Shown piece by piece: positions 2,673 to 41,102 of a stretch of 42,940 nt of DNA. The notes under the pieces are model-generated. The model did not search any database, was not told the DNA's origin, and worked only from the letters and a program-made list of their open reading frames with translations. Position 1 is the stretch's first letter. Every line of letters begins with the position of its first letter. Source of the stretch: Lachnospiraceae bacterium (lineage in GTDB: Bacteria; Bacillota; Clostridia; Lachnospirales; Lachnospiraceae); assembly GCA_017397645.1 (NCBI GenBank), contig JAFQIE010000026.1:1-42940 (forward strand), read 5' to 3'. A program made the translations under genes and the position numbers.

Positions 2673-2696
2673 TTTAATCTCCTTTTCGTTAATTTT

Positions 2697-14145: not shown

Positions 14146-14206
14146 ATCTTTACCGTGCCTTTCCTTTTATATCTACAAGCCATTTGCTGACATCTTTCCG
14201 TTGTAT

Positions 14207-26415: not shown

Positions 26416-26447
26416 AACATCTCTCCCTTCTACATACACATGAGTAT

Positions 26448-26840: not shown

Positions 26841-27854
26841 TTATAGGAACTCTGCCCGGTACTCGCCTTCATCAACGCCAATTACCCGCAGGAGTCTCTT
26901 GTCCAAATCGTATTCCACCTCTGCCATTCTGTCGAGGCTGTTGAGTATAACAAAAAAATCTTTGGTAAAAAGATAACCGCCCACCTTCATTTTACCCTTA
27001 CGGGGGATCTGCAGGGGCTTCCTGTTAGCCTTCCTGAACCGTTCAGGGAATGCCAGCATTTCTGTTTTCTGTTCTTCGGTGATATTATCATAGTGGTCCA
27101 TACCGCCCACACCTGTCAGTTCTAAATAGGAAACCAAATGTTCTTTGCCGCATTTCTTCGCCGCTTCCATATAGTTTCTTGCGTGATACACAGGCACTCG
27201 TATGTCTCCGTCGCCGTGAATGATAGCAAGGGGCGCAGTCAAATTTTCCAAAAGAGCGATACCACTTCTTGCAGTATATGCTTCCTTGTTCGAAAAATCA
27301 CCTATCCAAACATCCATTTCGTCGCGGAATTCGCCAATCTTATCATCCTCATAGTAAGGAATATAATCAGACATACCGGAAAGAGCTGTCACATGTGCAA
27401 AATAGTCGGGAAATTTTCCTGCGATGGCATAAGCATTTCCGCCACCGCCGCTTCCTGCTTCAAAATAAACCACATCCGGGTCTATGATGTATTCCTTATA
27501 ATTCTCTTTCACATATTCGATGGCATCTATAACATCATAAAGTTCCCAGCCGTTGCAGTCGGGCTTGCCATCGGAATACGCACGTCCGCGCATATCCACC
27601 TGTACCATCAAATACTCACTCTCCGGAGCTTCCAGTTCCTCAAACTTTTTGATGCTCATATGCCAGCCATGGGTACCTGCCAAAATATAAGAGGGTTTCT
27701 CCGGTTTGGACACACGCATTGCCAACGTAAGTTCCGGATGGATGCTGGATTTGTAATATATCAAATCACAGTACTTGGAATACTTGTTTTCTTTCTCCCC
27801 CACCTTTTTTTCTTCTCTCACACGGTCTTCGTATTCAGCATACAATTCTGCCAT
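26841..27854 (-). CDS. alpha/beta hydrolase (prolyl-oligopeptidase/acetyl-esterase type)
   Basis: A 337-residue cytoplasmic alpha/beta hydrolase. The start at 27854 has GGGAGGAG about 6 bases upstream. A strand-turn segment VQVDMRGRAYSDGKPDCNGW (residues near 85-105) is followed by the nucleophile elbow VYFEAGSGGGGNAYA, where the residue two before the Ser is Ala instead of the usual Gly. Asp is likely in IHGDGDIRVPV and His in GGMDHYDN. No signal peptide is present. It is the last gene of the long catabolic cluster, 54 bases after a TIM-barrel isomerase gene. It may remove an ester from the imported substrate; the substrate is not predictable. Confidence 0.7.
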   Translation of the reverse strand: MAELYAEYEDRVREEKKVGEKENKYSKYCDLIYYKSSIHPELTLAMRVSKPEKPSYILAGTHGWHMSIKKFEELEAPESEYLMVQVDMRGRAYSDGKPDCNGWELYDVIDAIEYVKENYKEYIIDPDVVYFEAGSGGGGNAYAIAGKFPDYFAHVTALSGMSDYIPYYEDDKIGEFRDEMDVWIGDFSNKEAYTARSGIALLENLTAPLAIIHGDGDIRVPVYHARNYMEAAKKCGKEHLVSYLELTGVGGMDHYDNITEEQKTEMLAFPERFRKANRKPLQIPRKGKMKVGGYLFTKDFFVILNSLDRMAEVEYDLDKRLLRVIGVDEGEYRAEFL

Positions 27855-27907
27855 TTTGTTCTCCTCCCAATGGATAAAGCGAGCGTCCACCGCCCGATTT
27901 ATTTTTC

Positions 27908-28726
27908 TTATGCTAATTTCCCTTTGATAAACGCAACGGATTCGTCAATCATCTGTGTGGTTTCCGCCACAGGATTGATCTCCACCACCAGTTGGCCTTC
28001 ATAGCCATCTGCCTTTAGCCTGTCGATCAATTCACCCATAGGAAGCAGACCATCACCGATGGCCGCACCATTGAACCTGGGCAGACCCTCTACATCAAAT
28101 TCGCCGGTTTCATCATTCTTCCAGTCCTTGATATGAACATTTACGATGCGGTCCTTCAAGGTTTCATATGCTTCCAGCACATCACTGTATCGGAAATAGA
28201 AATTACCTGTGTCAAAATTGTACTTCATGCCGGGAACATGGTCCAGAATATAGCGCATTTCTTCGATGGTGCCGAAGGGATAATCTTTTCTGGAGAAGTT
28301 CTCCGTCATGACAGTAACACCGTTTCCCTCGGCATATGCCATCACTTCATTCATACCCTTGATAATCATGTCGCGCATGAAAAGCTTGTCCTCTTCCGTT
28401 TTTACGTAGTCTGCCATAGGCACTACCATAAGCATGGGAATGCCTTCCTTGGCAGCATCATCTATCAGGGCCTTGATTTTAGTCATTTCTCTCTGATAGA
28501 TCGCCTCATCTGCAGTGGGAAAATAAGACATTCTGATGACCGTGCTGATTTTGACTCCATGTGCTTTCGCAAGTTCGCAATAGTCATGCAAAGAAATCTC
28601 TTTTAATTCGCTGTCAAAAATCTCCATGGTATCGAATCCTGCTGCCTTGGCATAATCCAATGCAGCACCCTTATCCCCATGAAATTCATCCAAATATAAT
28701 TGTAATGCAAAAATAGAAAGTACCAT
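27908..28726 (-). CDS. sugar isomerase/epimerase, TIM-barrel (IolE/IolI-like superfamily)
   Basis: A 272-residue xylose-isomerase-like TIM barrel. Two adjacent ATGs are possible; the second (28726) has better spacing from GGAGG. Putative metal ligands lie in the expected strands: Glu in VMTENFSRKDY, Asp in YNFDTGNFYF, His in NVHIKDWKND and Glu in LVVEINPVAE. Relatives include inosose dehydratase (IolE), inosose isomerase (IolI) and ketose 3-epimerases. It has a neighbour of the same fold upstream and is in one cluster with IolB and a Gfo/Idh/MocA dehydrogenase, which favours a role in cyclitol or keto-sugar conversion. Confidence 0.8.
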   Translation of the reverse strand: MVLSIFALQLYLDEFHGDKGAALDYAKAAGFDTMEIFDSELKEISLHDYCELAKAHGVKISTVIRMSYFPTADEAIYQREMTKIKALIDDAAKEGIPMLMVVPMADYVKTEEDKLFMRDMIIKGMNEVMAYAEGNGVTVMTENFSRKDYPFGTIEEMRYILDHVPGMKYNFDTGNFYFRYSDVLEAYETLKDRIVNVHIKDWKNDETGEFDVEGLPRFNGAAIGDGLLPMGELIDRLKADGYEGQLVVEINPVAETTQMIDESVAFIKGKLA

Positions 28727-28798
28727 CATTCTCCTCCCGCACCCCTGTCATAAGATATGCTTGGGTGCATGTCAATAGTATCGTCGTATTATTGTGCT

Positions 28799-29641
28799 TT
28801 ATTGAATATTCAATTTCGCCTTGATATCTTCCAGATAAGCTTTTGCGTAAATAATATCTCGGGTTTGCTCCTCGCCCGTAATCTCACGCTCAATGGTCAA
28901 AGGTCCGGTATAACCCAATTTATGCAATTTCTTTACAAAGTTGAAGAAATCCACTTTTCCGTCACCAATACGGGTTTCCTTGCCCAACTTATCTCCGCAA
29001 GTTGGATACATTCCGTCCTTGATGTGGGTATCCATCACATACTTACCGATCACATCCAGTGCATCCACAGGGTTTGCCTTACCATAGAGAATTAAGTTGG
29101 CGGTATCCAAATTGATACCCATATTGCCGGTGCCCACCGCCTCAATGGTACGAAGCAGTGTCACAGGGGTCTCCTGCCCGGTCTCAAAGAGGAAGTTTTG
29201 TCCTCTAGATTTCATAATGTTACAAATATAACGTAGTGCAGCAACCACACCGGCATAATTGGGATCACTCATATTCTCGGGGATAAAGCCCACATGGGTA
29301 ATCACGTTTTTGATACCCAGCCATTCTGCAAACTGACTTCCCTTGAGAAGTTCCTGCACGCGCTTATCTCTGTATGCCACCGGTACAATACCCAAGGTAT
29401 CGGGACCCGCGGTAAAATTCCACTCACAGGGTCCGGTCCAGCCTGCCCAAAGTGCCGAAATCTCAATGCCGTATTCTTCCGCCTGGCGCTTTACAGTCTC
29501 CGCATTTTCTTTCGTGTAATGAGACATGTTAAATACACTCAACTGACAGGAGGAAATCCCCATTTCCACCATCTTCTTAAACTCTTTTTCAAAATTCAGT
29601 TTTTCTTCCAAACAAGAAATTCTAACACCAATTTTCATCAT
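28799..29641 (-). CDS. sugar isomerase/epimerase, TIM-barrel, second copy
   Basis: A 280-residue TIM-barrel protein of the same superfamily as the next gene but clearly not a recent copy. The start at 29641 (two ATGs in a row) follows AGAGGA. Metal-binding type motifs are FLFETGQETP near residue 150, GINLDTANLILYG near 180, VMDTHIKDGMYPT near 205 and LTIEREITGEE near 250. The pair suggests two successive isomerisation or dehydration steps on the same carbon skeleton, as IolI and IolE do in inositol breakdown. It follows the Gfo/Idh/MocA gene with a gap of about 30 bases. Confidence 0.8.
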   Translation of the reverse strand: MMKIGVRISCLEEKLNFEKEFKKMVEMGISSCQLSVFNMSHYTKENAETVKRQAEEYGIEISALWAGWTGPCEWNFTAGPDTLGIVPVAYRDKRVQELLKGSQFAEWLGIKNVITHVGFIPENMSDPNYAGVVAALRYICNIMKSRGQNFLFETGQETPVTLLRTIEAVGTGNMGINLDTANLILYGKANPVDALDVIGKYVMDTHIKDGMYPTCGDKLGKETRIGDGKVDFFNFVKKLHKLGYTGPLTIEREITGEEQTRDIIYAKAYLEDIKAKLNIQ

Positions 29642-29670
29642 CGTTTCTTTCCTCTTTTCTGACATCATTT

Positions 29671-30651
29671 TTACGCCAATTCCATTTCCTTCTTTGCCAA
29701 ACGGAAGGAAGCGATGGCTTCGGAAAGAGGCACGATGCCGTTATAATTCTGTGTTTCTATAGTTTCAATAAAGTACTTAATCTCATTCAGGTAGGGACCC
29801 ATATCGGATACATTGATGCCCATATCCATTTCTTCCTTGGCACCAATTTCAGGCAGAATCACACCACCCTGTTCGGGATATACCTTCAATGCGCCGTCTT
29901 CACCAAGCACCACCGTTGCACGCTCCAGTCTCACACGGAAGGTCTGTGCGAAGGGCATGCCGGCAGTATAATTCCAAGAGCCTTCTGCCATGAGCACCAC
30001 ATCACCGTACTTGTAGCTGGTCCAGATATGCTGCACAATACCATTTTCATCTTTCACAAAAGACGTTTGAATGGAATCCGGGTCACCGTTCATCAGGTAA
30101 CGTACGAAGTCCACATCGTGAATATGTAAATCCAGAACCATGGAGCCGGTTCTGTTCACATCATCATGTCCCACCATCCAAGTAGGACGGGGGCTTAAAC
30201 GTGCGAAATCACCTGCCACCACTTTGCCGTAGGTGCCATCTTCCACCACTTTCTTCAAATATGCATACGCATCTGTAAAGCGCACCACATGCGCAACCTG
30301 TACCAACGCACCGGATTTCTTCTCTGCTTCCAAAATCCGTTCCGTCTCTGCTTCTGTCAGGCATACAGGCTTTTCTACGATGACATTTTTCACCTTTGCC
30401 ATAGCCCATTCTAAATAATCGGCATGCAAAAAAGTGGGAACACAGATGTCAACCACATCCAGTTCTTCGTTTTCCAGCAATTCCCGTCCATCGCGGTACA
30501 TCTGTCCGCCCGCTTTGTCGGCATACTTTTGTGCTCTCTCTTCGTTCATGTCGGCCACTGCTACCAATCGAACTTTGTCCTTCATAGCCAGCCAACACTC
30601 TGCATGTACGGCACCAATACCGCCGCATCCAATCAGTCCTACTCTAATCAT
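29671..30651 (-). CDS. Gfo/Idh/MocA dehydrogenase (inositol 2-dehydrogenase-like)
   Basis: A 326-residue NAD(P)-dependent oxidoreductase. The Rossmann motif GLIGCGGIGAVHAE lies at residues 5-18, the EKPVCLT lysine motif near residue 94, and the second domain contains VLDLHIHDVDFVRYLM with the catalytic His-type HDVD near residue 177. Family members oxidise myo- or scyllo-inositol, glucose-type sugars or nucleotide sugars. Being next to IolB and two IolE/IolI-like barrels, an inositol-like or deoxy-sugar substrate is likely. Length is normal. It begins 32 bases after the iolB-like gene. Confidence 0.85.
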   Translation of the reverse strand: MIRVGLIGCGGIGAVHAECWLAMKDKVRLVAVADMNEERAQKYADKAGGQMYRDGRELLENEELDVVDICVPTFLHADYLEWAMAKVKNVIVEKPVCLTEAETERILEAEKKSGALVQVAHVVRFTDAYAYLKKVVEDGTYGKVVAGDFARLSPRPTWMVGHDDVNRTGSMVLDLHIHDVDFVRYLMNGDPDSIQTSFVKDENGIVQHIWTSYKYGDVVLMAEGSWNYTAGMPFAQTFRVRLERATVVLGEDGALKVYPEQGGVILPEIGAKEEMDMGINVSDMGPYLNEIKYFIETIETQNYNGIVPLSEAIASFRLAKKEMELA

Positions 30652-30683
30652 CCCTCTTTTTCCCTTCTACTTTTGTTTTTCGA

Positions 30684-31472
30684 TTATTTGACCCAATCGT
30701 GCTCCGGATCGTTGCTTCTGTTGAAGCCCTGATAATCGCCTGCCATCAGCCAGAGGAAATAAGTTTCATAGCCGGGTGTGGAAACGGTAGAATGGTATCC
30801 ATACGGGAACTCTACCAGTTCATCATTCTTCACGCGGTATGTCTCATCCAATGATCCGTCAGCAGTATACAGACATTGTACCCCAAAGCCCTGCTGGGGG
30901 TCAAATAGAAAATAGTAGATTTCTTCACAAATACATTCGGTGGGCATATTGTCTTCGTCATGCTTATGGGGAGGGAATCCCGCCCAGTTGCCCTCAGTCA
31001 CATAGCACTCACCGATAGTCAGCACTTTGGCATTGGAATTGCCATCGATAATGAAGCTGGTCTCTCTCTCAAAAGGGACTCTTCCCAAGGTCTTCAATAC
31101 CACATGATCTTCTCTCAAAAGCTGTGCTTCGGTTTTCTCTGCCACAGGAGTCCCGCAAACCGCTATCTTCACATGGTCCAACGCCTTAATCTGCAGTTTC
31201 TGGTCTCTGGGCATGTAGAAGCTCTCTGCCTTGCGGTTTTCGAATACGTTCTTTCTGTTGCCGACATTTCTCCAACAGGTGGTATCAAAGGAAACATCGC
31301 AGTGACCCTCTAACATAATAAAAGCCACCTCACGGTCTTTTGTATCAAATTCCTGCAAACCACCTGCTTCCAGTTCAATGATACCAAACTCCAGTTTCTT
31401 CAGGCTGCACTCACCAATCTTGCAAACGGGAGTATAACCAATCTTCTTTTCATACCTTTTCTTAAAGTCCAT
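30684..31472 (-). CDS. iolB: 5-deoxy-glucuronate isomerase family (IolB)
   Basis: A 262-residue bicupin of the IolB family, which in inositol catabolism turns 5-deoxy-glucuronate into 2-deoxy-5-keto-gluconate. The second cupin has the metal set FPPHKHDEDNMPT near residue 168, the partner Glu in EEIYYFLFDPQQGFGVQ, and the late His in PYGYHSTVSTPGYETYFLWL. The protein also keeps the family ending DPEHDWV. GGAGG lies 9 bases before the ATG. Upstream of the start is a perfect dyad (31491-31506). In the canonical pathway the substrate is made by IolD; no IolD-like gene is in the window, so the real substrate may differ. Confidence 0.88.
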   Translation of the reverse strand: MDFKKRYEKKIGYTPVCKIGECSLKKLEFGIIELEAGGLQEFDTKDREVAFIMLEGHCDVSFDTTCWRNVGNRKNVFENRKAESFYMPRDQKLQIKALDHVKIAVCGTPVAEKTEAQLLREDHVVLKTLGRVPFERETSFIIDGNSNAKVLTIGECYVTEGNWAGFPPHKHDEDNMPTECICEEIYYFLFDPQQGFGVQCLYTADGSLDETYRVKNDELVEFPYGYHSTVSTPGYETYFLWLMAGDYQGFNRSNDPEHDWVK

Positions 31473-31490
31473 ATCTGCTTTCCTCCTTTT

Positions 31491-31506
31491 ATGACACTTT
31501 TGTCAT
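31491..31506. promoter_or_regulatory. 6-bp dyad just upstream of iolB
   Basis: Perfect arms atgaca/tgtcat with a 4-base centre, ending only a few bases before the GGAGG of iolB on the minus strand. It could be an operator for an internal promoter in the 70-base gap, or an mRNA hairpin affecting iolB translation. No convincing -35/-10 pair was found beside it. Confidence 0.4.
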
Positions 31507-31542
31507 TTTATTGTTTCCATTTTACTATATTTTCGTTTTTCA

Positions 31543-33054
31543 TTATTTGTGCTGTAAATGGGGTAACACTTCCTCAATCGTTCCAACCACCCCATAATCT
31601 GCATACTCAAAAATAGGAGCTTTCGGGTCGGGATTGATGGCAATCACTGTTCCTGACTGCTTCATACCGGCAATATGATGTACTGCGCCTGAAATTCCCA
31701 CAGCAAGATAGACTGCCGGGCTAACGCTCTTGCCGGTAATGCCAACCTGCCTGGAATAGGGCTGAAGGTCTGTGTCCACAGCACCACGGGAGGCTGCCAT
31801 ATCCCAACGGATACCCCTCTCGCGCCACTTGGCATTTTCCTCCGCCACAAGAGCCTCTATCCTTGTCATAACCTCCTTGGCCCCCTTGCCCACACTCACG
31901 ACGATATCTGCGTTGCCCGATTCCATAGTGCGGACCGTAGCCATCGCGGGCTCAGTACGGCAAACAATCTTGGCAATGATGTTGCCCGAGAACGCCGGCC
32001 GATACATAAACAGGGTATCACCATCCGTCTCAAGAGCAGTGCAGTCTGCACAAAGGCCGGTCTGTAACAATGCCGCCACCTGAGGTGCAGCTGCCTTACT
32101 CCAGCTGTCAGAGCCCCAGAGAATAACTTTGGGATTGTGCTGTTTCACATAATCCGCAAATTTCTCCGCAAAGGCTCTTGTATCATATTCCGTTGTAAAA
32201 GTTTCCCTGTCAATCACAGTGATGTCATCACTGATGCTTTCCGCAAAGGTGCGAGGCGCTTCTCCCACCATCCACACGTTGGAAAGAGGTGTTTCGCATT
32301 TCGAAACCGGTTGTAGCCTATTCTTTTCTTTTTCCAGTCCTGTCTCTATAGCCTCCAACAACTGACTCAGGGGTATGTATTGGCACTTTCTTTTTCCCTC
32401 TGCATTTGTAAAGGAAGCCATCACTCTGGTAGGGGAACCCTGGGTACCGCACCGTGTCAAATCCGCCCCAAGGTCTTGCGCTGTCCATCTGACCACTGTG
32501 CCGCGTTTAGAGCGGATACTGGGCAGGCGTAGATGGTGAATTCTCTCCACGGTAATCAAAGCCGGGAAGGCAACCGTCCTAAGAACGCCGTCCCTGTCCT
32601 CACACTGTATCCCGTTCCGGCACAATATGGTTCCATCCGTCCCGTCCTCATACAGATTGGACCCTAAATCTCCCACAGCATGAATCTTCATTACATTGGT
32701 AATCAGATTCAAATCTGCCATCACGGACAGCGACGGACCTGTTTGTGCCGTATCGCCGTCCACTGTCTGTCTGCCACAAATCACCAAATCCGGTTGCAGT
32801 TTTTTGATGGCAAGGGACAGTGTGTACCCCGTTGCCAAAGTGTCTGCGCCGGCAAAGGCCTTATCGCACAAATGGTACGCTTCCTTAGCTCCCAGTCTGG
32901 TAAGATTCAGAAGCATCTCGCCGGTGCGTTCCGGCCCCATGGACAGCAGGATAACCTCACCATCCGGGATCCGTAAAGCTGCTTCGTAAGCACTGGCATC
33001 AAAGGGATTTAATTCTCCGTCTGTCGTCTGTTTTACACATACAACTATTTTCAT
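31543..33054 (-). CDS. fused electron-transfer flavoprotein, EtfB-EtfA in one chain
   Basis: One 503-residue frame holds both ETF subunits. Residues 1 to about 205 match the beta subunit (KIVVCVKQ, NPFDASAYEAAL, GRQTVDGDTAQTGP). Residues from about 265 match the alpha subunit, ending in its FAD-binding domain (SRQVGITGKSVSPAVYLAVG, then INPDPKAPIFEYADYGVVG). The start at 33054 has GGAG 6 bases upstream. Normal ETFs are two genes totalling about 580-600 residues; here the sum is shorter and there is no stop between halves. ETFs take electrons from flavin dehydrogenases, and this cluster has an FAD-linked dehydrogenase and an Fe-S protein upstream, so the three probably form one electron chain. 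A bifurcating role is possible but not shown. Confidence 0.88.
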   Translation of the reverse strand: MKIVVCVKQTTDGELNPFDASAYEAALRIPDGEVILLSMGPERTGEMLLNLTRLGAKEAYHLCDKAFAGADTLATGYTLSLAIKKLQPDLVICGRQTVDGDTAQTGPSLSVMADLNLITNVMKIHAVGDLGSNLYEDGTDGTILCRNGIQCEDRDGVLRTVAFPALITVERIHHLRLPSIRSKRGTVVRWTAQDLGADLTRCGTQGSPTRVMASFTNAEGKRKCQYIPLSQLLEAIETGLEKEKNRLQPVSKCETPLSNVWMVGEAPRTFAESISDDITVIDRETFTTEYDTRAFAEKFADYVKQHNPKVILWGSDSWSKAAAPQVAALLQTGLCADCTALETDGDTLFMYRPAFSGNIIAKIVCRTEPAMATVRTMESGNADIVVSVGKGAKEVMTRIEALVAEENAKWRERGIRWDMAASRGAVDTDLQPYSRQVGITGKSVSPAVYLAVGISGAVHHIAGMKQSGTVIAINPDPKAPIFEYADYGVVGTIEEVLPHLQHK

Positions 33055-33075
33055 AAAATACTCCAATTGCAACAA

Positions 33076-34557
33076 TTATGATACGCCACTTCTTTTATGA
33101 TAAATAGGTGCCAATGCATCGTGCACTGCCACATATTCCTCGAATATTTCTTCATAAGCGCGGTGATTTCCGGCATTGGGCTTGGTCACGGTATCCACCT
33201 TAACACAGGCATCCACTGCTGCTTTTGCATTCTCAAACACACCAACCGCAATTCCTGCCAACATGGCAGAACCCAAAGAGGAATCGCTGCTCACCGTCTT
33301 AATCAAATCAATTCCCAAACAGTCAGCAGTAATCTGACGCCACAACTCACCCTTCGCTCCTCCACCGATAATGGTGGCCGGTTTGGTAATGGAAATACCC
33401 ATCTCCTCCAAAGTCTTTTTGGAATGTAGCAGGGATAATGCCACACCTTCCAGTACCGCACGGGTAAAATGTCCTTTGGTGTGGGTCGCACGCATACCGA
33501 TAAAACTGCCACACAGAGAAACATCCCCGTAGGGTGTCAACTCTCCGTTCAGATATGGATGATACATCAACCCTTCACATCCGATAGGCACCGTCTCTGC
33601 CCCCTGATTTAATTCTTCAAAACTGCCGCCAAAGGTGTCCCGATACCAGCGATACGAGCTTGCCGCCGCCTTAGTAGCAGTGCCGGGATACCATAATCCA
33701 TCTACCACATGGGCATAATTCACCAAATGCTTGTTAGGATAGGGTTCCGGTGTAATTACGCAAATTCTGCCTGCCGTAGCCAGCTTCACCGTCACATCCC
33801 CGGGGGATACCGCACCGGAGGCAAACACCTCCATAACTGTATCCGTGGTGCCGCAAATAACAGGGGTCCCCTGTGCCAGACCGGTCGATGCCGCCGCTTC
33901 AGCCGTCACCGCACCAATCACGTCGGTGGGCTTTTTCAGAGGAGGCAACATAGATGCATCAATTCCTGCAATCCCCATCAGTTCTTCACTCCACCTGTTC
34001 GTGCGGCAATCAAACAACATGCTGCCCTGGGCTTCTATGTAATCCGTGCAATAGACTCCTGTGAGCCCATAACGGATATAATCCTTTTCGAAGAAAATAT
34101 AACGCATGCGGTGAAAGCTCTCCGGCTCGTGTTCACGCACCCAAAGAATCTGAGGCAGCGTCCATATGGTGCCGGGATTATGGAAACTTTGCTCGAAAAT
34201 CAAATCTCCATATCCTGTCTTCAATTGCTCCGCTTCCGCGATAGACCTGGAATCCGTCCAATGGATGGCAGGACGAAGCGGCTTATAATCTTCATCACAC
34301 ATCACCCAAGTATGAGTAGCAGAATCTATGGCTAACGCCAAAATGTCCTCCGCATGCACGGAGGACTTTTTTAATAAATTTTGCACATTCTCTGCCAGAG
34401 CCTGATTCCAGTCTGCAGGCTCCTGCTCACACCATCCAAGGTTGGGATAGTAGGTCGGATATTCTACTGTATTCTCTGCTACAATGTTGCCCATTGTGTC
34501 AATCAATGTAGCCTTTGAGGAGCCTCCACCGAAATCAATGCCCAATAAATATTTCAT
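33076..34557 (-). CDS. FGGY carbohydrate kinase (xylulokinase-like)
   Basis: A 493-residue sugar kinase of the FGGY family. The first phosphate motif is LLGIDFGGGSSKATLID (Gly where Thr is frequent), the catalytic Asp is probably in AIHWTDSRS near residue 101, and the C-terminal signature is TIIGGGAKGELWRQITADCLG near residues 395-415. Relatives phosphorylate xylulose, glycerol, ribulose, fuculose, erythritol and similar polyols or ketoses; the sequence alone does not tell which. It lies between the PfkB kinase and the fused ETF, with short gaps. Together with the FAD-linked dehydrogenase it recalls the glycerol kinase/GlpD order of kinase then flavin oxidation. Confidence 0.85.
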   Translation of the reverse strand: MKYLLGIDFGGGSSKATLIDTMGNIVAENTVEYPTYYPNLGWCEQEPADWNQALAENVQNLLKKSSVHAEDILALAIDSATHTWVMCDEDYKPLRPAIHWTDSRSIAEAEQLKTGYGDLIFEQSFHNPGTIWTLPQILWVREHEPESFHRMRYIFFEKDYIRYGLTGVYCTDYIEAQGSMLFDCRTNRWSEELMGIAGIDASMLPPLKKPTDVIGAVTAEAAASTGLAQGTPVICGTTDTVMEVFASGAVSPGDVTVKLATAGRICVITPEPYPNKHLVNYAHVVDGLWYPGTATKAAASSYRWYRDTFGGSFEELNQGAETVPIGCEGLMYHPYLNGELTPYGDVSLCGSFIGMRATHTKGHFTRAVLEGVALSLLHSKKTLEEMGISITKPATIIGGGAKGELWRQITADCLGIDLIKTVSSDSSLGSAMLAGIAVGVFENAKAAVDACVKVDTVTKPNAGNHRAYEEIFEEYVAVHDALAPIYHKRSGVS

Positions 34558-34611
34558 ATGTTGCCACCTTCTCTTTATCCGAATGATTATGCCGTGCTTG
34601 CACGGCCAATG

Positions 34612-35556
34612 TTACTTTATCGCAATCGTCGCATTATGCTCCTGCAGAAACGCTTCCAGACGATTCATATCGGGTGCCGACTCTCTGGCTCCGAAGCCGG
34701 TGCATTTTACCGCAGAGACCGCACTTGCAAAAGTGCAGCAATCCCGATAGGAATAGCCTTTCACCACGGCTGCTGCAAAAGCACCGTGGAATACATCACC
34801 GGCACCGTTGGAATCCACCGCGTCCACCTTGAATGCGTCGTAATGTTCCACGCTTTCGCCCTGATATAGGACACCACCGTTTTTGCCGTCCGTAATGACC
34901 ACAACTTCCGGTTGATAAGTTTCGTACAATTTGACTGCGGCAGCCGCTATATCCTTCTCATCGGTAACGCCTAACGCAAACTCCGCGGAAGGGATCAAAA
35001 TATCTGCCTTGGGAAGCAATCTCTCCACACCCTCATACCTGCCGCCGGCGTCATAAAGCACCTTCCCACCATAGGCATGGATGTATTCAGACGCATCAAT
35101 GGCCGCTTGCAATTCATTGCCATCTACCATCAATAGCTTGGCCTGACGAAGAATGGCAGCTCCGTCCTCATTCAGTGCATAAGGAGGCAGATTACCTCTG
35201 TCAAAGACACAGGTCCTGGTGCCCTCTGTACGATTCAGCCAAATACTGGAAGTAAAGGAACGATAATCTCCTTTGTATTTTACTATAGCTTGGGTATTTA
35301 CACCATACTTTTCGAAATCTTCTTTTAGAAAAACTCCTGAAGCATCCTCGCTCAAAACCCCCAAATAAGCAGCATTAACCCCTAATTTGGAAACAGCGAC
35401 AAGACCGGTCGCTACCGGTCCGCCGCCTGCCATTTTAGAATCTTCTGCGCGAAGTTTCGTGTCTTCTGTCGGAAAACTTGTCAAAGTATAAAGCATGTCC
35501 GCCACGCAGGCACCCACGCCTGCCACCTGTACGAATGCGTCTCTATTTATACTCAT
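34612..35556 (-). CDS. PfkB-family sugar kinase
   Basis: A 314-residue ribokinase-type kinase. The start at 35556 is preferred because AAAGGGAG lies just upstream; it overlaps the end of the aldolase gene by 14 bases, suggesting coupled translation. The first signature is MAGGGPVATGLVAVSKLG near residues 42-60, and the anion-hole/catalytic motif is DSNGAGDVFHGAFAAAV near 245. In inositol catabolism a PfkB kinase (IolC) acts just before a class II aldolase (IolJ), and here such a kinase is coupled to such an aldolase. Fructokinase- or tagatose-6-phosphate-kinase-like activity is also possible. Confidence 0.85.
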   Translation of the reverse strand: MSINRDAFVQVAGVGACVADMLYTLTSFPTEDTKLRAEDSKMAGGGPVATGLVAVSKLGVNAAYLGVLSEDASGVFLKEDFEKYGVNTQAIVKYKGDYRSFTSSIWLNRTEGTRTCVFDRGNLPPYALNEDGAAILRQAKLLMVDGNELQAAIDASEYIHAYGGKVLYDAGGRYEGVERLLPKADILIPSAEFALGVTDEKDIAAAAVKLYETYQPEVVVITDGKNGGVLYQGESVEHYDAFKVDAVDSNGAGDVFHGAFAAAVVKGYSYRDCCTFASAVSAVKCTGFGARESAPDMNRLEAFLQEHNATIAIK

Positions 35557-36397
35557 ATACTCCCTTTCCTGTTGCATCCAGAAGTGCAATTTTCTGAAGT
35601 GCAAATTCCTTCACTTTTGCGATTGGATACTTCATAAAGTTATCCAACGCAATACTCCTCTCGGGATTCTCTAATTCTTCACCAACCGCATCCAAGAAAG
35701 TATAGCAAATATCTGTGGCAAAGTTCATCTTGCGGATACCCGCCTTCACTGCCAACTTGATTTGGTCATCCGGAATACCGGAGCCACCATGGAGAACTAG
35801 AGGAGTGTGATTGGTGGCTCCGTAGATGTTGGCGATTCTTTCAATGTCCAGCTTGGGAGGCTTTTTGTACCTTCCGTGAGCATTGCCCACTAACACAGCC
35901 AAACATGCTACGCCCGTGCGTTTTACGAAGTCAGCGGCTTCTTCCACATTGGTGAACTCGTCCATGCCATCGTCGGTGACGCTTCCTACATGACCTAATT
36001 CTCCTTCAATGGAGATACCAAGATGTGCACAGGTGTCTGCCACACGCTTGGTCAATGCCACATTTTCTTCATAGGGGAGGATGGATCCGTCCAACATAAT
36101 ACCCGTTGCTCCCCAATATAAAGCTCTGGTCACTTCCAATTCGGAAGGGCCATGGTCTAAATGGAAACATACCGGAACACTGGCCTTCTTCGCTGCTGCG
36201 ATGATGGAAGGAGCCAAATAATATGCTACGCCTTCCTTTACCAGTCTGGGGTATACCTGCATAATGATGGGAGCTTTCGCTTCCTCTGCTGCTTCGATGA
36301 TACCCACAACCGTTTCCATGTTGTAAACATTAAATGCAGGAATGGCAAATCCGCCTTTTTGTGCCATGTCCAAAATCTCTTTCAAACCGACTAACAT
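35543..36397 (-). CDS. class II ketose-bisphosphate aldolase (FbaA/GatY/IolJ type)
   Basis: A 284-residue zinc aldolase. Zinc and catalytic motifs are FHLDHG at residues 78-83, GELGHVGSVTDDG near 135, GNAHGRYK near 180 and LHGGSGIPDD near 210, with the phosphate loop KMNFATDIC near 230. The family splits fructose-, tagatose- or 2-deoxy-5-keto-gluconate-phosphates into two three-carbon units. It has a strong ribosome site (GGAGG) and overlaps the PfkB kinase downstream. The kinase-aldolase coupling means that the cluster ends in C3 products, whatever the starting compound. Confidence 0.9.
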   Translation of the reverse strand: MLVGLKEILDMAQKGGFAIPAFNVYNMETVVGIIEAAEEAKAPIIMQVYPRLVKEGVAYYLAPSIIAAAKKASVPVCFHLDHGPSELEVTRALYWGATGIMLDGSILPYEENVALTKRVADTCAHLGISIEGELGHVGSVTDDGMDEFTNVEEAADFVKRTGVACLAVLVGNAHGRYKKPPKLDIERIANIYGATNHTPLVLHGGSGIPDDQIKLAVKAGIRKMNFATDICYTFLDAVGEELENPERSIALDNFMKYPIAKVKEFALQKIALLDATGKGVYEYK

Positions 36398-36412
36398 AGC
36401 GTCCGCCTCCTA

Positions 36413-37495
36413 TTATCCTAAAATCAATTCTTCCAAAGAGAGAATCTTCACATCACTTTGATCAACTGCCTTCAGTGCTGCATACTCAGATACACTTGCT
36501 GTTACTATGGTATCTGCGCCAACGCCCTTAGCATTTTTGATACGGTTTGCTGCCACTTTGTCGATAACATCGGGCATCCATTCCTTCATCAAAAGATTAC
36601 CTGCCCACATGGTAGCTGCACCATTTACCAGCATCTCCTTGCATACAGCGTATGCGTTCACCACTTCTCTTACAGGAGCGGTCTCCTCTAAATCTCTGGA
36701 AAGTTGGAATGAATCCTGAACCACCATTTCCTTATCGGAAGCGGATGCCTTCAGTGCGCCACTCTTCAAAAGTTCAGCCACATACGCGGTAAAGGTTACC
36801 ACGTCTGCTGTCAGTTCTACGCCCCACTCCTTGTATTCACGCTTGAATACCTTAGCATCCTGAGGATCATATACCACTACGGTCTTGAAAGTATTCAAAG
36901 CCTTTGCACATGCTTCCATTTGCTCCTTGGTCTCGTTAGCCGCACTGATTAAGTACTCCAACTGCTGACCGCTGGCGGGTTCTTTGTCAAGAACCGTGAA
37001 GGAAACGCCTGCTTTTTCCAATACCTTGATGGCATTCACTGCTGCCTGAGGCACTTTGTAAGTAGCGTCCACACCAAGGAACAGAAGCACATCACTCTTT
37101 GCTTCGTGCGCTGCTGCAGCCTTTGTGAGGGCTGCGTCCACCTCAGTGATACCGTATGCGTTACCGGTCTCCAAACAATTGTCTACCAGCTTGTTAATGT
37201 ATTCAGGAAGTACGCCCTCCATCGCTGCGTCAAGTCTTGCTTCCTTGGTGAACATCACAGGATCCCATCCGGTGATACAATCCTTCACACAACCGCCACA
37301 GCAGGCGCATTCGTAAATATTGTCAATGACTTCTGCAAGTTCGATGGCACCACGGTTTACCAAAGAAAGTCCCAATGCTCTCGCTCTTGCTGTATTTCTC
37401 TCAAGTCCGGTTGCGTTTCCAATGGGACAAATGTGATGGCACATCCAACAGAAACGACAGGACTCTACATGTTGTTTACTCTTTTCTGACATCAT
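36413..37495 (-). CDS. Fe-S protein with two 4Fe-4S motifs and cysteine-less CCG-like domains
   Basis: A 360-residue soluble protein related to GlcF/LutA/HdrD-type heterodisulfide-reductase-like subunits. The N-terminus has two cluster motifs: Cys13, 16, 19 and 23 in CRFCWMCHHICP, and Cys63, 65, 66, 69 and 73 in CACCGGCVKDC. The C-terminal two thirds should hold two CCG domains. In their place are YDPQDAKVFKREYKEWGVEL and QDSFQLSRDLEETAPVREV, which align with the usual CPxCxxxFxxEYP and HDPCxLGRxxxxYxxPRE patterns but lack the cysteines. So the protein probably carries two cubane clusters but not the special CCG-bound one. It lies next to the FAD-linked dehydrogenase and presumably forms a complex with it. 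Confidence 0.82.
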   Translation of the reverse strand: MMSEKSKQHVESCRFCWMCHHICPIGNATGLERNTARARALGLSLVNRGAIELAEVIDNIYECACCGGCVKDCITGWDPVMFTKEARLDAAMEGVLPEYINKLVDNCLETGNAYGITEVDAALTKAAAAHEAKSDVLLFLGVDATYKVPQAAVNAIKVLEKAGVSFTVLDKEPASGQQLEYLISAANETKEQMEACAKALNTFKTVVVYDPQDAKVFKREYKEWGVELTADVVTFTAYVAELLKSGALKASASDKEMVVQDSFQLSRDLEETAPVREVVNAYAVCKEMLVNGAATMWAGNLLMKEWMPDVIDKVAANRIKNAKGVGADTIVTASVSEYAALKAVDQSDVKILSLEELILG

Positions 37496-37514
37496 AAGAT
37501 TACCCTCCTTGGAA

Positions 37515-38945
37515 TTACAGACCCAACTTGAACGGGTTCATAATACCGTTCGGGTCAAGCTGTTTCTTCAAGCCTTCAAACACCTGCATTGCGGGACCAT
37601 ACTGTTCCTTCATCAAACGGCCCAGTTTGATACCGACACCGTGGTGGTCATTTACCACGCCGCCATGTGCCAACGCCGCACGCACACCTGTGGTCCAAAT
37701 TTCCTGATGCATACGAAGTGCCTCTACAGGATCCTGAGGTACATCTTTGCCATCTACGATAAAGCGGTCGTATACCATTGCACCCCACTCATACCAGTGT
37801 GAGAAGTGAGCGATGAACTTTGCCTGAGGATGATTGGTCTCGATAGCTTCTTTCATAGCCCAGTATATCTCTTCAATCTTGCCGTAAGGAGCGATGGTAT
37901 CCATGGTACCGAACATCTGAGGAATATCCATCATGTGTCCGGGATAGAAGAAGGTAATCTTCTCATTCCACCACTTCTCACCGTATTCGCTGCCAAGGTC
38001 CTCTGCACCATACTTAGCAAAGGTTTCCAACAAAATCTTCTCTTCTACATCTACCATCTCCTTGCAACCTTCGATGGCAATGTTCATAAATGCACCGGGC
38101 TTCTCCACACCTACGATTTTCTTAATCAAAGATGCTGTCTCCGCAGGGTCGTACAGACGCATAACGGAGGGTTTGAACTTCTGCAAAAGTTCTCTGGAAG
38201 CCTTGAATGCTCCGGTCATATCCTGGAACAAAAATCCACGGAATCTTCTTTCTTCAGGCTGGTCGAAGATACGGATTTGCGCCTTGGTGATAACACCAAG
38301 AGTACCTTCGGAACCGATGAAAATCTGGTTCAGGTCAGGGCCTGCCGCATGCTTGGGAGCAGGAGAAGTATAGATAATATCACCATTGGGAAGTACCACT
38401 TCCATCTGCAGTACCATGTCGTCAATCTTACCGTACTTGGTGGAAACTACACCGATACCACGGTGTGCCAGGAATCCGCCAACGGTGGAACAGGTCAGGG
38501 AAGAAGGATAGTGCATGGTTGCCTTACCCACTTCATTTGCCGCCCATTCAATATGTTTGTAAATAGCTCCGGTACCACACTCTATGTACATACCTTCGGT
38601 GTTTACTTCATAAATCTGATTCATTCTCTTGGTATCTAATACGATACCGCCGCAAACGGGAATCGCACCTCCCTGGGTACCGCCGCCTGCACCCCATGTG
38701 GTCACGGGGATTTTATAGTAGTTCGCAATCTTTAACACCTTGGATGTTTCCTGTGCGTCCTTAGGTGCAACCACGAAATCTGCCTCAGGCATTCTGCGTC
38801 CGCGGTCAGCCCACATACGGGACAGCCAGTAGTAGTCTACGCTGTGGGTCACTTTGTCAATCTGTTTGACAGAACAGTTTTCTTTTCCTACCGCGTCTTC
38901 CAACTCGGTGAGAATCATAGAAAATAAAAATTCATTCATCTGCAT
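37515..38945 (-). CDS. FAD-linked dehydrogenase of the GlcD/alkyl-DHAP-synthase type
   Basis: A 476-residue flavoenzyme of the VAO/PCMH class. The FAD-binding N-terminal half has VTTWGAGGGTQGGAIP near residue 93, then YPSSLTCSTVGGFLAHRGIG and IFIGSEGTLGVITKAQIRIF. The C-terminal cap has VVNDHHGVGIKLGRLMKEQYG, like the His-His motif of alkyl-dihydroxyacetone-phosphate synthases and D-lactate dehydrogenases. Relatives oxidise hydroxy acids or phosphorylated polyols and pass electrons to ETF or Fe-S partners. Here an Fe-S protein follows after 19 bases and a fused ETF lies further down the operon. AGGAG precedes the ATG by 6 bases. The substrate is not known; a phosphorylated sugar, cyclitol or sugar acid fits. 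Confidence 0.85.
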   Translation of the reverse strand: MQMNEFLFSMILTELEDAVGKENCSVKQIDKVTHSVDYYWLSRMWADRGRRMPEADFVVAPKDAQETSKVLKIANYYKIPVTTWGAGGGTQGGAIPVCGGIVLDTKRMNQIYEVNTEGMYIECGTGAIYKHIEWAANEVGKATMHYPSSLTCSTVGGFLAHRGIGVVSTKYGKIDDMVLQMEVVLPNGDIIYTSPAPKHAAGPDLNQIFIGSEGTLGVITKAQIRIFDQPEERRFRGFLFQDMTGAFKASRELLQKFKPSVMRLYDPAETASLIKKIVGVEKPGAFMNIAIEGCKEMVDVEEKILLETFAKYGAEDLGSEYGEKWWNEKITFFYPGHMMDIPQMFGTMDTIAPYGKIEEIYWAMKEAIETNHPQAKFIAHFSHWYEWGAMVYDRFIVDGKDVPQDPVEALRMHQEIWTTGVRAALAHGGVVNDHHGVGIKLGRLMKEQYGPAMQVFEGLKKQLDPNGIMNPFKLGL

Positions 38946-38965
38946 CTTTGTCTCCTTGTTTACTC

Positions 38966-40135
38966 TTAGGCAGTCTCAACGATTCTGCCATTTTTGATTA
39001 CATTAGAAATATTGCAGTCTTCGTCGAACAGTACAATATCTGCCCGATATCCTTTTTGGATCTTGCCAATGTCTGTTGCGCCTAATATCTTCGCAGGCGT
39101 CTCTGTCATCATCTTAATGGCGTCCACAAGTTCTAAGTGATAGTGGGTCTTAGACTTCTTCAATACCCTTGCCATTGTAGCAACACTTCCCGCAAAGGAG
39201 GAACGGTCGGGCAGCTTAGCTACACCATCCTCCACAATCACTCTGTTCTCCGGCAGTTTGGCTCCGAGATAACTTTCGGTCACATCCAAGCCCGCCGGGC
39301 GGATGGCATCCGTCACCAGCGCCACATTGTCCGTACCTTTGATTTTCATCGCCAATTTCAGGCCATGTTCTGTAGCATGGTTACCATCAGCAATCAACTC
39401 CACCGTCACAGCATCGTCCAGATATGCCGCTTCAATGACACCGGCAGTTACCACCTGGTTGATTTTGCGCACACTGGGTGTGGCACTGTATAAATGGGTG
39501 ATATGGGAAAATCCCCAACGGAATCCTTCCAATGCCTGTGCCGCAGTGGCATCACTGTGTCCCAATGCCAAACCAACACCGTGCTCTTTTAAGGTCTGTG
39601 CAAACTCCTGCATGTTGTCCAGTTCGCACGCCGCTGTCATACGGCAGATAATCCCCTTACCCACTTCCAAAAGTTGCTTTGTCTCTTCCGTGGTAGGAGC
39701 ATGAAGCAGTTTCTCGTTATGGGCGCCCTTTTGATTGACAGATAAATAAGGTCCTTCCAAATGCAATCCATAGATACTGGGGCATTTGTCTATAGCCTTT
39801 TTACAGACCTCAATCATTTCATAAATATCTTCCATAGGAGCGGTCACCGCCGTGGGTACAATGGTGGTGGTTCCATTCTTCAAATGAATATTTGCGACCT
39901 CACAGAACGCCTCCTCCGTGCAATCCATGATGTCATATCCTGCACCACCATGCACATGGATGTCTATAAACCCGGGAGAAACATAGTTCCCCTTGGCATC
40001 CAGCACTTCACAATCTACAGGAATTTCTCCGGCAAAATTATCATCCAAGATTTTCGTATCGTGTATCAGAATGTCTCCTTTTCTGATTTCACCGTTTGCA
40101 ATCACTTTGCCGTTTTGAATCAACAAATAACTCAT
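38966..40135 (-). CDS. nagA: N-acetylglucosamine-6-phosphate deacetylase
   Basis: A 389-residue amidohydrolase that removes acetate from GlcNAc-6-phosphate. Motifs are GFIDIHVHGGAGYDIMD near residue 56, HLEGPYLSVNQKGAH near 125 with a metal-binding Glu, GHSDATAAQALEG near 190, HLYSATPSVR near 210 (usually HLFNAM), and the catalytic Asp in ALVTDAIRPAG near 270. It lies directly downstream of a NagB-like gene. The shift from HLFNAM to HLYSAT in the substrate loop leaves room for an unusual N-acyl amino sugar. The ribosome site is weak. Confidence 0.88.
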   Translation of the reverse strand: MSYLLIQNGKVIANGEIRKGDILIHDTKILDDNFAGEIPVDCEVLDAKGNYVSPGFIDIHVHGGAGYDIMDCTEEAFCEVANIHLKNGTTTIVPTAVTAPMEDIYEMIEVCKKAIDKCPSIYGLHLEGPYLSVNQKGAHNEKLLHAPTTEETKQLLEVGKGIICRMTAACELDNMQEFAQTLKEHGVGLALGHSDATAAQALEGFRWGFSHITHLYSATPSVRKINQVVTAGVIEAAYLDDAVTVELIADGNHATEHGLKLAMKIKGTDNVALVTDAIRPAGLDVTESYLGAKLPENRVIVEDGVAKLPDRSSFAGSVATMARVLKKSKTHYHLELVDAIKMMTETPAKILGATDIGKIQKGYRADIVLFDEDCNISNVIKNGRIVETA

Positions 40136-40156
40136 GTCTAATTCTTCGTGATTTAA

Positions 40157-41005
40157 TTATTTGTTGTAAATTCTGATTTCAGGAATTGGAGACTGTAATG
40201 CTACATCTGCTGCATACAATTTAGCATCCTTGTGCATCTGGAACAAAGAGCAGGGAACCTTTGCGGTTACGTCGCCGTGAAGTACCTTTCTCAAAGCGCC
40301 TGCGTTCCAGTCGCGGGGCATACACATTCTTACCTTCTTCGCCATGAACATTTCCTTCATACCAACGGTGATACAAAGTTTGGGAATACCATTCAAATCT
40401 CCGGCACAGTTCATGAAGCAGTTGATGGTTCTGGTCTCTCTGGAAACAGGGAGTACTCTGGTAGCACGATTCAAGAACTCTTCATTGGTGCATTCCTCTC
40501 CATCCTCAGGGGGCTCGTTGAATGCATAATGTCCGTTAATACCGATACCGCCGAATACCATATCAAGCTTGCCGAATTTCTCAATGAGTTCCATGGGCTT
40601 ATTGGGATTCTTAGGATCGGGAAAATATCTGTTCTCAGGAAGAACATTTAATTCCTCGTCAATCTGGCTGTAGAAGATTCTGTCCATACCACCTCTGAAG
40701 GACAAAGGATCGTTTTTGTCAATGTACTCGCCGTCATCTGTCAAATACTCATCCATGTTGATGAATGTACAGTTCTTTAGGCTGACACGATATTTGTTAA
40801 TCAAATATACCAATCTGCTGTAAGGTCCGATAGGTCCATAAGGAACTACCATAAGAGTGGGCTCACCCTTTTTGTTGTTTTCTTCGATGGTCTCTAATAC
40901 TTCGATTGCCACCTTCCAGTACATATCCACTTCTGTGTCACATACGTCTAATTTGATGTTGCTTCCTTTACCAAGGTCTTCTTTTTTGATTCTATTGATG
41001 TCCAT
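40157..41005 (-). CDS. NagB-like glucosamine-6-phosphate deaminase/isomerase, divergent
   Basis: A 282-residue protein of the NagB/6-phosphogluconolactonase superfamily. Conserved are NMDEYLTDDGEYIDK near residue 83 (Asp85, the catalytic base position) and GGIGINGHYAFNEPPE near 153-167 with His159 and Glu164. In E. coli NagB the second motif reads DGH with catalytic Asp141; here the residue is Asn157. The first loop, VVPYGPIGPYSRLVY, also lacks the usual GGTP-type phosphate motif. It is the first gene of the cluster, with GAGGAGG 8 bases before the ATG, and faces an AraC regulator. Deamination of an amino-sugar phosphate is likely, but standard GlcN6P activity should not be assumed. Confidence 0.8.
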   Translation of the reverse strand: MDINRIKKEDLGKGSNIKLDVCDTEVDMYWKVAIEVLETIEENNKKGEPTLMVVPYGPIGPYSRLVYLINKYRVSLKNCTFINMDEYLTDDGEYIDKNDPLSFRGGMDRIFYSQIDEELNVLPENRYFPDPKNPNKPMELIEKFGKLDMVFGGIGINGHYAFNEPPEDGEECTNEEFLNRATRVLPVSRETRTINCFMNCAGDLNGIPKLCITVGMKEMFMAKKVRMCMPRDWNAGALRKVLHGDVTAKVPCSLFQMHKDAKLYAADVALQSPIPEIRIYNK

Positions 41006-41035
41006 AGAACGTACCTCCTCTGATTTTATACTGGA

Positions 41036-41102
41036 ATTATACCCCTTTCTTCCGCTTTGGGATATACACTAGTCTGCTGTTTTTTAGCATTTTTCTGCTA
41101 TT
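41036..41102 (-). promoter_or_regulatory. activator-type promoter region of the catabolic cluster
   Basis: A perfect TATAAT on the minus strand (41041-41036) lacks a good -35. Upstream of it lie two direct copies of ctgct(g/a)tt at 41074-41081 and 41095-41102, exactly 21 bases apart. Such spacing on one face of the helix is typical for the two half-sites of an AraC-type activator, and an AraC gene is divergently encoded here. Confidence 0.5.

Follow-up and report, generated by a model that had tools for sequence, protein, structure and literature searches.

The window analyzed here, the whole 42,940-nucleotide (nt) stretch of contig JAFQIE010000026.1 from a Lachnospiraceae bacterium (assembly GCA_017397645.1), includes a run of 13 minus-strand genes that we tentatively interpret, short of real confidence, as an operon for sugars that would enter the cell free and would at no point bear a 6-phosphate, with the split of a ketose-1-phosphate and recovery of the resulting three-carbon (C3) unit. 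Drawn at full length, the interpretation is a widespread glycolytic route of the herbivore gut that bypasses hexose-6-phosphates, with free hexosamines entering through a new NagB clade devoid of the phosphate site, free hexoses entering through an L-fucose-isomerase (FucI)-like enzyme, and the C3 unit processed, after the ketose-1-phosphate split, by an exceptionally conserved flavin adenine dinucleotide (FAD) dehydrogenase, an Fe-S protein, a fused bifurcating-type electron transfer flavoprotein (ETF), an IolB-like protein and an FGGY kinase; in that complete form it is doubtful.

The proposed route would have four steps. The family 20 glycoside hydrolase (GH20) and the set composed of the Gfo/Idh/MocA dehydrogenase (Gfo) and two TIM-barrel proteins (TIM1 and TIM2) would release the sugar, as their gene association suggests. 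NagA would then deacetylate a free N-acetylhexosamine and the NagB-like protein would deaminate the free hexosamine to a ketose, a reaction predicted from the loss of phosphate ligands, while in other genomes the FucI-like enzyme would convert a neutral hexose to the ketose. The PfkB kinase would form the ketose-1-phosphate, and the class II aldolase, as its loss of an arginine suggests, would cleave it to dihydroxyacetone phosphate (DHAP) and an unphosphorylated aldehyde, which would be glyceraldehyde if C6 is a plain CH2OH, the case we hold likeliest. In the fourth and weakest step IolB, the FGGY kinase and the FAD/Fe-S/EtfBA proteins would channel the C3 unit (either glyceraldehyde or a glycerol or glycerate derived from it) into glycolysis, with the electrons leaving through the ETF.

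A gene cassette that recurs across genomes

A scan of 84,980 species genomes with an alignment of the FAD dehydrogenase identified 161 relatives, of which the best 80 were used to define loci. After removal of a duplicate contig (L050, the same as L004), 81 loci were examined, the window included, all of which hold the FAD gene by construction. The FAD, Fe-S, FGGY and ETF genes are found together in 62 of them, and these 62, in which the four genes are present by selection, are the basis for the cassette counts given here; in 18 of the other 19 loci the run comes within 200 nt of the locus end, L033 being the exception. The scan for neighbor families covered 142 of 151 selected neighbor proteins.

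The recurring unit is a seven-gene cassette coding for the FAD dehydrogenase, Fe-S protein, class II aldolase, PfkB kinase, FGGY kinase, fused EtfBA and IolB-like protein. The genes for IolB, aldolase and PfkB are present in 61, 60 and 59 of the 62 loci, respectively; the FAD and Fe-S genes adjoin in all 62, the aldolase and PfkB genes in 58 and the FGGY and ETF genes in 58, and the order FAD, Fe-S, aldolase, PfkB is uninterrupted in 53. Accessory genes include those for the FucI-like isomerase (41 loci), DUF4867 (26), an aldose-1-epimerase-like protein (17), NagA (12) and the NagB-like protein (11). The neighborhood search proposed in an earlier note on this DNA, made from the sequence alone, has recovered the core in other genomes, including those of other families and orders, and because of this recurrence the run is beyond chance.

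The distribution of the cassette is patchy: among the sampled genomes, 2 of 299 from the window's own family have the fused ETF (E<=1e-40) and 29 of 391 from the class have the FAD gene, the window's own genome being counted in both cases. A ruminant, rabbit ('Lapin') or rumen source is named in 48 of the titles of the best 80 FAD relatives. Despite the occurrence of the cassette FAD gene in 29 of the 391 class genomes, no published description of this gene combination was found in a search of the open-access literature, outside of which most subscription papers fall.

Entry of the sugar and cleavage to C3 units

Both families of the canonical N-acetylglucosamine (GlcNAc)-6-phosphate pair NagA-NagB are present with their catalytic residues. 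NagA keeps the positions E131, H195, H216 and D273 of the E. coli enzyme, which we take to be functional residues, and D72, H143 and E148 (E. coli NagB numbering) are kept in 22 of 22 cluster-type NagB copies. The difference from the canonical pair is that this NagB clade is without the 6-phosphate ligands and that the window protein scores 104/237 (model scores are given as bits obtained/cut-off). The T41/G43/T44 loop and R172 are lost in all 22 copies, T41 being replaced by V or Y, G43 and T44 being deleted and R172 being replaced by Y, F or A. At K208 the 21 untruncated copies carry N, Q, L or H (one copy is truncated). The canonical NagB encoded elsewhere in the window's genome (268 bits, above the cut-off) keeps T41, T44, R172 and K208. 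A canonical NagB above the cut-off was found in 16 of 19 operon genomes, and therefore the cluster NagB-like gene is not the housekeeping copy. GalK and UxaC/UxuA are also present elsewhere in the window's genome. If the reaction with unphosphorylated substrate is true, it would extend a textbook enzyme family to a reaction new for it, and family-model names such as xylulokinase, IolB and NagA would be misleading for these genes. A MurQ/GckR-like gene of about 560 codons was observed inside NagB-type operons at L020:16127-17806 (scanned), L073:17852-19588 and L136:5134-6831 (the latter two by eye).

The FucI-like and NagB-like genes rarely co-occur: 39 of the 62 loci have only the former, 9 only the latter, 2 both and 12 neither (Fisher p=5e-4, the loci being related and not independent). 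FucI, NagB and NagA genes stand together in front of the core in one genome (G315), and a separate FucI-NagA-NagB operon exists in G569 and G652, which belong to one genus. A FucI-like gene was found in 20 of the 23 carriers searched (in G551 only at 33%), and the three carriers that lack it (the window's genome, G467 and G492) all have the NagB-like gene in the operon. The simplest reading is that NagA/NagB and the FucI-like enzyme are parallel entries to one free ketose.

The Gfo/TIM/TIM set is probably a glycoside-opening module of the levoglucosan type, because it resembles the Lgd set and because GH4 genes are located near some cassettes (L004, L015 and, by eye, L129). As far as the available text of PMC7676230 goes, LgdA, LgdB1 and LgdB2, which likewise combine a Gfo protein with two unlike TIM-barrel 'sugar phosphate isomerases', cleave the glycosidic bond of levoglucosan by C3 oxidation, elimination and hydration, LgdC reduces the product, and the whole scheme is likened by its authors to that of a GH4 enzyme. 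TIM1 and TIM2 of the window share 26% identity over 84 residues. The window Gfo, however, scores only 75.5/650 on the levoglucosan dehydrogenase (LGDH) model.

Cleavage of a ketose-1-phosphate, giving DHAP and an aldehyde without phosphate, appears more likely than a bisphosphate split, because the aldolase has lost the arginine of the 'DPR' motif of GatY/KbaY and because the closest solved relatives of the aldolase and the PfkB kinase are YdjI and sulfofructose kinase (7ag6), respectively. The arginine is replaced in 71 of 71 aldolases (by Asp in 69, Gly in 1 and Lys in 1) and is likewise absent from YdjI, and the equivalog models listed for the aldolase are all below their cut-offs. The PfkB motif G[AS]GD is present in 64 of 65 copies, and the kinase scores 49/216 on the 1-phosphofructokinase (1-PFK) subfamily model. 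E. coli MG1655 ydjH and ydjI, annotated as octuluronate kinase and octuluronate-1-phosphate aldolase, can be considered a similar PfkB-class II aldolase pair that acts through a ketose-1-phosphate without the bisphosphate arginine; they differ in that the stretch read has no flavin/ETF module and no NagB-like or FucI-like entry, and YdjH shows a median identity of 25% to the cassette PfkB proteins. The aldol cleavage to C3 units put forward in the earlier note is thus supported, with DHAP as a probable product. The two phosphorylations that it also foresaw are matched by two kinases, but both phosphates are probably not placed on one hexose, given an aldolase without the bisphosphate arginine.

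In G410 the FucI, aldolase and PfkB genes form their own operon and the FAD, Fe-S, IolB, DUF4867, FGGY and ETF genes are on another contig, an arrangement that separates the two modules physically. A related FucI-aldolase-PfkB set in G340 is accompanied by glycerate-2-kinase-like (88/550), enolase-like (277/300) and aldehyde dehydrogenase genes, as would be expected if the aldehyde is glyceraldehyde, and G597 has the same type of cluster by eye. A second version of the C3 branch could be represented by the clusters at L145:3303-18828 (scanned) and L149:580-10545 (by eye), where FucI-like, aldolase, PfkB and DUF4867 genes are grouped with those for an aldo-keto reductase, a glycerate-2-kinase, an enolase and an aldehyde dehydrogenase.

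The flavin module and the C3 unit

The central place that the earlier note gave to a flavin/ETF (non-NAD) oxidation is borne out. The FAD dehydrogenase is 31% identical to E. coli YgcU versus 24% to GlcD, and its closest solved relative is the alkyl-DHAP synthase (ADPS) 2uuu, an enzyme that presumably binds DHAP. The motifs HxGDGNxH and EHG, which we take to be the metal motifs of GlcD, are absent from the window protein and from YgcU in the alignment, while HHG[VI]G is found in 79 of 79 FAD copies and the string EHG occurs somewhere in 3. An identity as a GlcD-type 2-hydroxyacid dehydrogenase was rejected on the absence of these metal motifs and a score of 189.8/567.9 on TIGR00387. Two CxxCxxCxxxC motifs are present in 76 of 76 copies of the Fe-S protein. 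The solved structures closest to the fused EtfBA are 5ol2, 4kpu, 6fah, 7koe and 7qh2, all of which we assume to be bifurcating Etfs. The last of these, the lactate dehydrogenase-Etf complex LctBCD, likewise pairs a FAD dehydrogenase with an Etf and both of its subunits are among the solved relatives, but the window FAD subunit is of the ADPS/YgcU branch and lacks the metal motif of the GlcD type, the Fe-S protein is separate and the Etf is fused.

Across families, 81 other copies of the FAD protein share 86-96% identity (median 92) with that of the window, and its partners are more variable (ETF 36-64%, median 53; PfkB 43-61%; aldolase 42-84%). Identity at four-fold degenerate sites in ten loci is 29-53% for the FAD gene versus 22-46% for the other core genes; since the silent sites of the FAD gene are near saturation, its conservation is explained mostly by strong purifying selection rather than by recent transfer.

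Distant FAD relatives were inspected in nine contexts (E. coli, five of the 25 plasmid records listed among 742 that matched, and three genomes), namely those of E. coli, Mesorhizobium, Microbacterium, Labrenzia, Paracoccus, Shinella, G673, G556 and G671. Of the 9, 8 have an FGGY-family kinase gene close by, the exception being the 5-kb contig of G671, and GlpK, a GlpD/GlpA-like protein or a glycerol dehydrogenase is encoded in 5 (Microbacterium, Labrenzia, Paracoccus, G673 and G556). These contexts point to C3 chemistry, but in those that already encode GlpD or GlpA the FAD enzyme need not act as the sn-glycerol-3-phosphate dehydrogenase. The FAD/Fe-S/ETF proteins, the FGGY kinase and IolB would probably handle a C3 unit. 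Two Clostridia genomes (L125:3241-9570 and L126:4138-10502) combine GlpK and GlpA-like genes with a FAD gene of the YgcU type, and a 5-kb contig (L124:220-4062) carries a FAD gene at 54%, its Fe-S partner and, by eye, a Tm-1-like ATP-binding gene.

The E. coli ygc locus (YgcU, YgcR/YgcQ, YgcE and YgcW, annotated as putative) shares with the window a YgcU-type FAD dehydrogenase (31%) and an FGGY kinase (25%). Its YgcQ and YgcR, which we presume to be an ETF pair, resemble the window ETF at 6e-12 and only at 0.005, respectively. It differs in its split ETF, in the presence of short-chain dehydrogenase/reductase (SDR) and transporter genes instead, and in the absence of IolB, aldolase, PfkB and NagA/NagB genes from the stretch read. 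The cassette suggests a concrete candidate function for the ygc genes and is a system in which the use of ETF-linked oxidation by sugar fermenters could be tested.

Several points weigh against the proposed route. NagA scores above the GlcNAc-6-phosphate deacetylase cut-off (TIGR00221, 270.6/225.65), and TIGR00167, the subfamily model for ketose-bisphosphate aldolases, accepts the window aldolase (234.6/215.6). The functions of the lost residues, T41/G43/T44, R172 and K208 of NagB as ligands of the 6-phosphate and the DPR arginine as the C6-phosphate ligand of bisphosphate aldolases, are those we assume them to have. We know of no precedent for a NagB-type deamination of a free hexosamine. Loss of the phosphate ligands is not unique to the cluster NagB clade, given a third NagB-family gene of the window's genome (C46; 113 bits, below the cut-off; beside NagA, L132:457-2393) that lacks the loop and R172 and keeps K208. 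No FucI-like gene was found at E<=1e-30 in the window's own genome, the assembly of which is 74% complete. GalK is above its cut-off in only 13 of the 19 operon genomes, so that plain galactose is a possible substrate. A FucI-like gene of G480 has as neighbors a second isomerase gene and one resembling fructose-6-phosphate aldolase (L150:1947-5400), and an Eda-type aldolase in the G340 cluster could be an alternative source of glyceraldehyde. The aldolase gene, the PfkB gene or both are missing near the core in L026, L069 and L076. Finally, the roles of IolB and the FGGY kinase are putative, and the latter, which is not GlpK-like, passes the xylulokinase model by 0.8 bits.

Competing explanations

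The leading rival, unlikely in our estimation, is that the same route serves a sugar with another anion at C6, be it a sulfonate as in sulfoquinovose (SQ), an O-sulfate as in 6-sulfo-GlcNAc or 6-sulfo-galactose, or a carboxylate, in which case the aldolase would release, in the manner of sulfoglycolysis, a C3 aldehyde bearing that anion. The evidence on C6 conflicts. Signs of a neutral C6 are the glycerate-kinase cluster, the loss of basic NagB ligands and the Asp of the aldolase, which stands at the position of the former phosphate Arg. Two points against a neutral C6 are that the FucI-like protein of L084 has the SQ isomerase SftI as its sole NCBIfam match, although its 107/700 is far below equivalog level, and that DUF4867 is encoded in 26 of the 62 cassettes. 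The solved DUF4867 protein of B. megaterium (9gyy) is 40% identical to the L084 model. Sulfofructose kinase is the closest solved relative of PfkB, EamA transporters account for 7 of the 142 neighbor proteins and AEC transporters occur in 7 of the 62 loci, and an LDH2-type gene is found in 4 loci, with L-sulfolactate dehydrogenase as the top model (241/500) for the single copy that was scanned. On the other side, no sulfatase is among the 25 commonest of the 160 neighbor families matched, and the GH31 protein of L084 scores 76/553 on PRK10426, which we take to be the model for the sulfoquinovosidase YihQ, and so is not YihQ-like. The carboxylate version is opposed by the UxaC, SDR and UxuA genes at positions 836-4037 of the window. 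In the available text of PMC13219744, DUF4867 is the SftX of rumen SQ clusters, but the family is also found in a lacABCD operon and beside rpe/rpiB. Cassette relatives thus include the SftI-type isomerase, DUF4867 and YihV-like kinase families of sulfoglycolysis, whereas their scores are far below the equivalog cut-offs and the FAD/Fe-S/ETF, FGGY, IolB and NagA/NagB proteins are not mentioned in that part of the account. The lacABCD (tagatose) operon, located on a Carnobacterium plasmid, ends with its DUF4867 gene at L088:8989-9669.

The next alternative, distinctly improbable, is an ordinary operon for GlcNAc- or N-acetylgalactosamine-6-phosphate (NagA, NagB, 6-phosphofructo/tagatose kinase and bisphosphate aldolase) to which unrelated genes have become attached. 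A NagA and an aldolase that pass their models and the adjoining GH20 gene would fit such an operon; a NagB at 104/237 without phosphate ligands, a canonical NagB elsewhere in the genome, the loss of the aldolase arginine in 71 of 71 copies, a PfkB that is ribokinase/sulfofructose-kinase-like with 49/216 on the 1-PFK subfamily, and neighbor genes that are conserved and not random would not.

Two independent pathways under a shared promoter, a sugar route (NagA/NagB or FucI, PfkB and aldolase) and an unrelated FAD/Fe-S/ETF-FGGY-IolB route that serves a different substrate, for instance a polyol, would account for the modules on different contigs in G410 and for the FAD-FGGY association without aldolase in the stretches read of Mesorhizobium, Labrenzia, Shinella, Paracoccus and E. 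coli. This explanation, which follows in rank and is also quite improbable, is at odds with the uninterrupted FAD-Fe-S-aldolase-PfkB order in 53 of 62 loci and with the presence of IolB, aldolase and PfkB in 61, 60 and 59.

The operon does not look like an inositol pathway, and the cyclitol-type route favored in the earlier note was not supported. That IolD is absent, as stated there, agrees with the lack of TIGR04377 matches (E<=0.001) in the window's own 1.81-Mb, 74% complete genome assembly, window included. The claim that IolG-, IolE-, IolI-, IolB-, IolC- and IolJ-like functions are all represented stands for IolB, which narrowly passes its equivalog cut-off (217.4/205), and fails for IolG, IolE, IolI and IolC, where the resemblance is at superfamily level: Gfo scores 127.7/355 on the IolG model, TIM1 and TIM2 21.7 and 30.5/290 on IolE, and PfkB 93.5/300 on IolC. 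Nor is the operon identical to the Anaerostipes inositol pathway, a possibility left open in the note; as far as the available text of PMC8355322 goes, that pathway uses IolG, IolE, IolD, IolB, IolC, IolJ and an acyl-CoA dehydrogenase-Etf. The likeness lies in the IolB family and in superfamily relatives of IolG, IolE, IolC and IolJ, and the Etf partner is an acyl-CoA dehydrogenase there and a YgcU-type FAD enzyme here. Close relatives of the window Gfo were found in L083 and of TIM1 in L083 and L137, adjoining Gfo genes, and Gfo stands beside TIM1 in L147 and L151; at the same threshold TIM2 and the hydrolase had no close relatives in the cassette loci, and other Gfo-family proteins make up 6 of the 142 neighbors. 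Since IolB is in 61 of 62 cassettes and Gfo/TIM relatives are in few, IolB cannot depend on the Gfo/TIM genes. Very unlikely, therefore, is an inositol or aminocyclitol route with the alpha/beta hydrolase in the place of IolD (oxidation by Gfo, dehydration by a TIM protein and hydrolytic ring opening, followed by IolB, an IolC-like PfkB and an IolJ-like aldolase to give DHAP and malonate semialdehyde): the IolB score, the Gfo-TIM-TIM-hydrolase order directly after IolB, and a DegT aminotransferase gene with two further Gfo genes just upstream of the GH20 gene would suit it, but the IolG, IolE and IolC models are far below cut-off, the IolB-containing core is also present in loci that yielded no close Gfo, TIM or hydrolase relative, and the FGGY kinase and the NagA/NagB or FucI entries are left without explanation.

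All 13 open reading frames (ORFs) of the run described in the earlier note are present with families as named there (Table 1), and its single operon-like character is confirmed by intergenic distances of 21, 20, 19, 15, -62, 54, 18, 70, 32, 2, 69 and 17 nt, calculated with the ETF start set at 33057. The feature is larger than the 13 genes, as the AraC-family regulator and, on its far side, the GH20 gene are parts of the same system. The ABC importer is probably part of it too, since relatives of both permeases (60% and 57% identical) are encoded immediately upstream of the FucI cassette of L074. A promoter-like 11/12 match at 26767 on the minus strand precedes the permease genes, in a scan that gave 41 such sites versus 33.9 expected.

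Table 1. Genes of the 13-gene run and of its immediate surroundings in the window
Feature	Position	Strand	Evidence or remark
NagB-like deaminase/isomerase, divergent clade without 6-phosphate ligands	40157..41005	-	TIGR00502 104 bits, cut-off 237; 0 Pfam matches
NagA-type deacetylase	38966..40135	-	TIGR00221 270.6 bits, cut-off 225.65
FAD dehydrogenase, YgcU/alkyl-DHAP-synthase-like branch	37515..38945	-	FAD_binding_4 and FAD-oxidase_C
4Fe-4S protein, two cluster motifs, HdrC/GlpC-like	36413..37495	-	two CxxCxxCxxxC motifs
Class II aldolase, predicted ketose-1-phosphate type	35543..36397	-	F_bP_aldolase, PF01116
PfkB-family kinase, predicted ketose 1-kinase	34612..35604	-	62-nt overlap with aldolase gene
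FGGY kinase, XylB-like	33076..34557	-	TIGR01312 xylulokinase 381.0 bits, cut-off 380.25
Fused EtfB-EtfA	31543..33057 (alternative start TTG 33075)	-	PF01012 and PF00766
IolB-like aldose-ketose isomerase	30684..31472	-	TIGR04378 217.4 bits, cut-off 205
Gfo/Idh/MocA dehydrogenase	29671..30651	-	top models UDP-GlcNAc 3-dehydrogenase 134.1/450, IolG 127.7/355 bits
TIM barrel 1 (TIM1), AP_endonuc_2	28799..29668	-	family match
TIM barrel 2 (TIM2), AP_endonuc_2	27908..28729	-	family match
Alpha/beta hydrolase, S9/esterase type	26841..27890	-	PF00326 3e-19
ABC permease 1, probably importer	25507..26439	-	401 nt downstream of run
ABC permease 2	24616..25497	-	second L074 permease 57% identical
Divergent AraC-family regulator	41190..42014	+	PF12833 and AraC_binding
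GH20 (family 20C) hexosaminidase, C-terminal part, runs past window	42018..42938	-	PF18088 1.5e-45; full ORF L005:1018-2631

Beyond the operon regulator, a minus-strand run of GH20C, DegT aminotransferase and two Gfo genes (L005:1018-6273, contig positions 42018-47273) may handle 3-amino or 3-keto sugars. Elsewhere in the window, the UxuA, SDR and UxaC genes mentioned above correspond to a glucuronate route, pyrimidine genes lie in a row at 12419-15529 (DHO_dh, DHODB Fe-S-binding and a dihydroorotase-like amidohydrolase), a GH92 (alpha-mannosidase family) gene is located at 16187-18253, and a glucuronoyl-esterase-like gene (PF22244) occupies 22887-24032, downstream of the ABC permeases.

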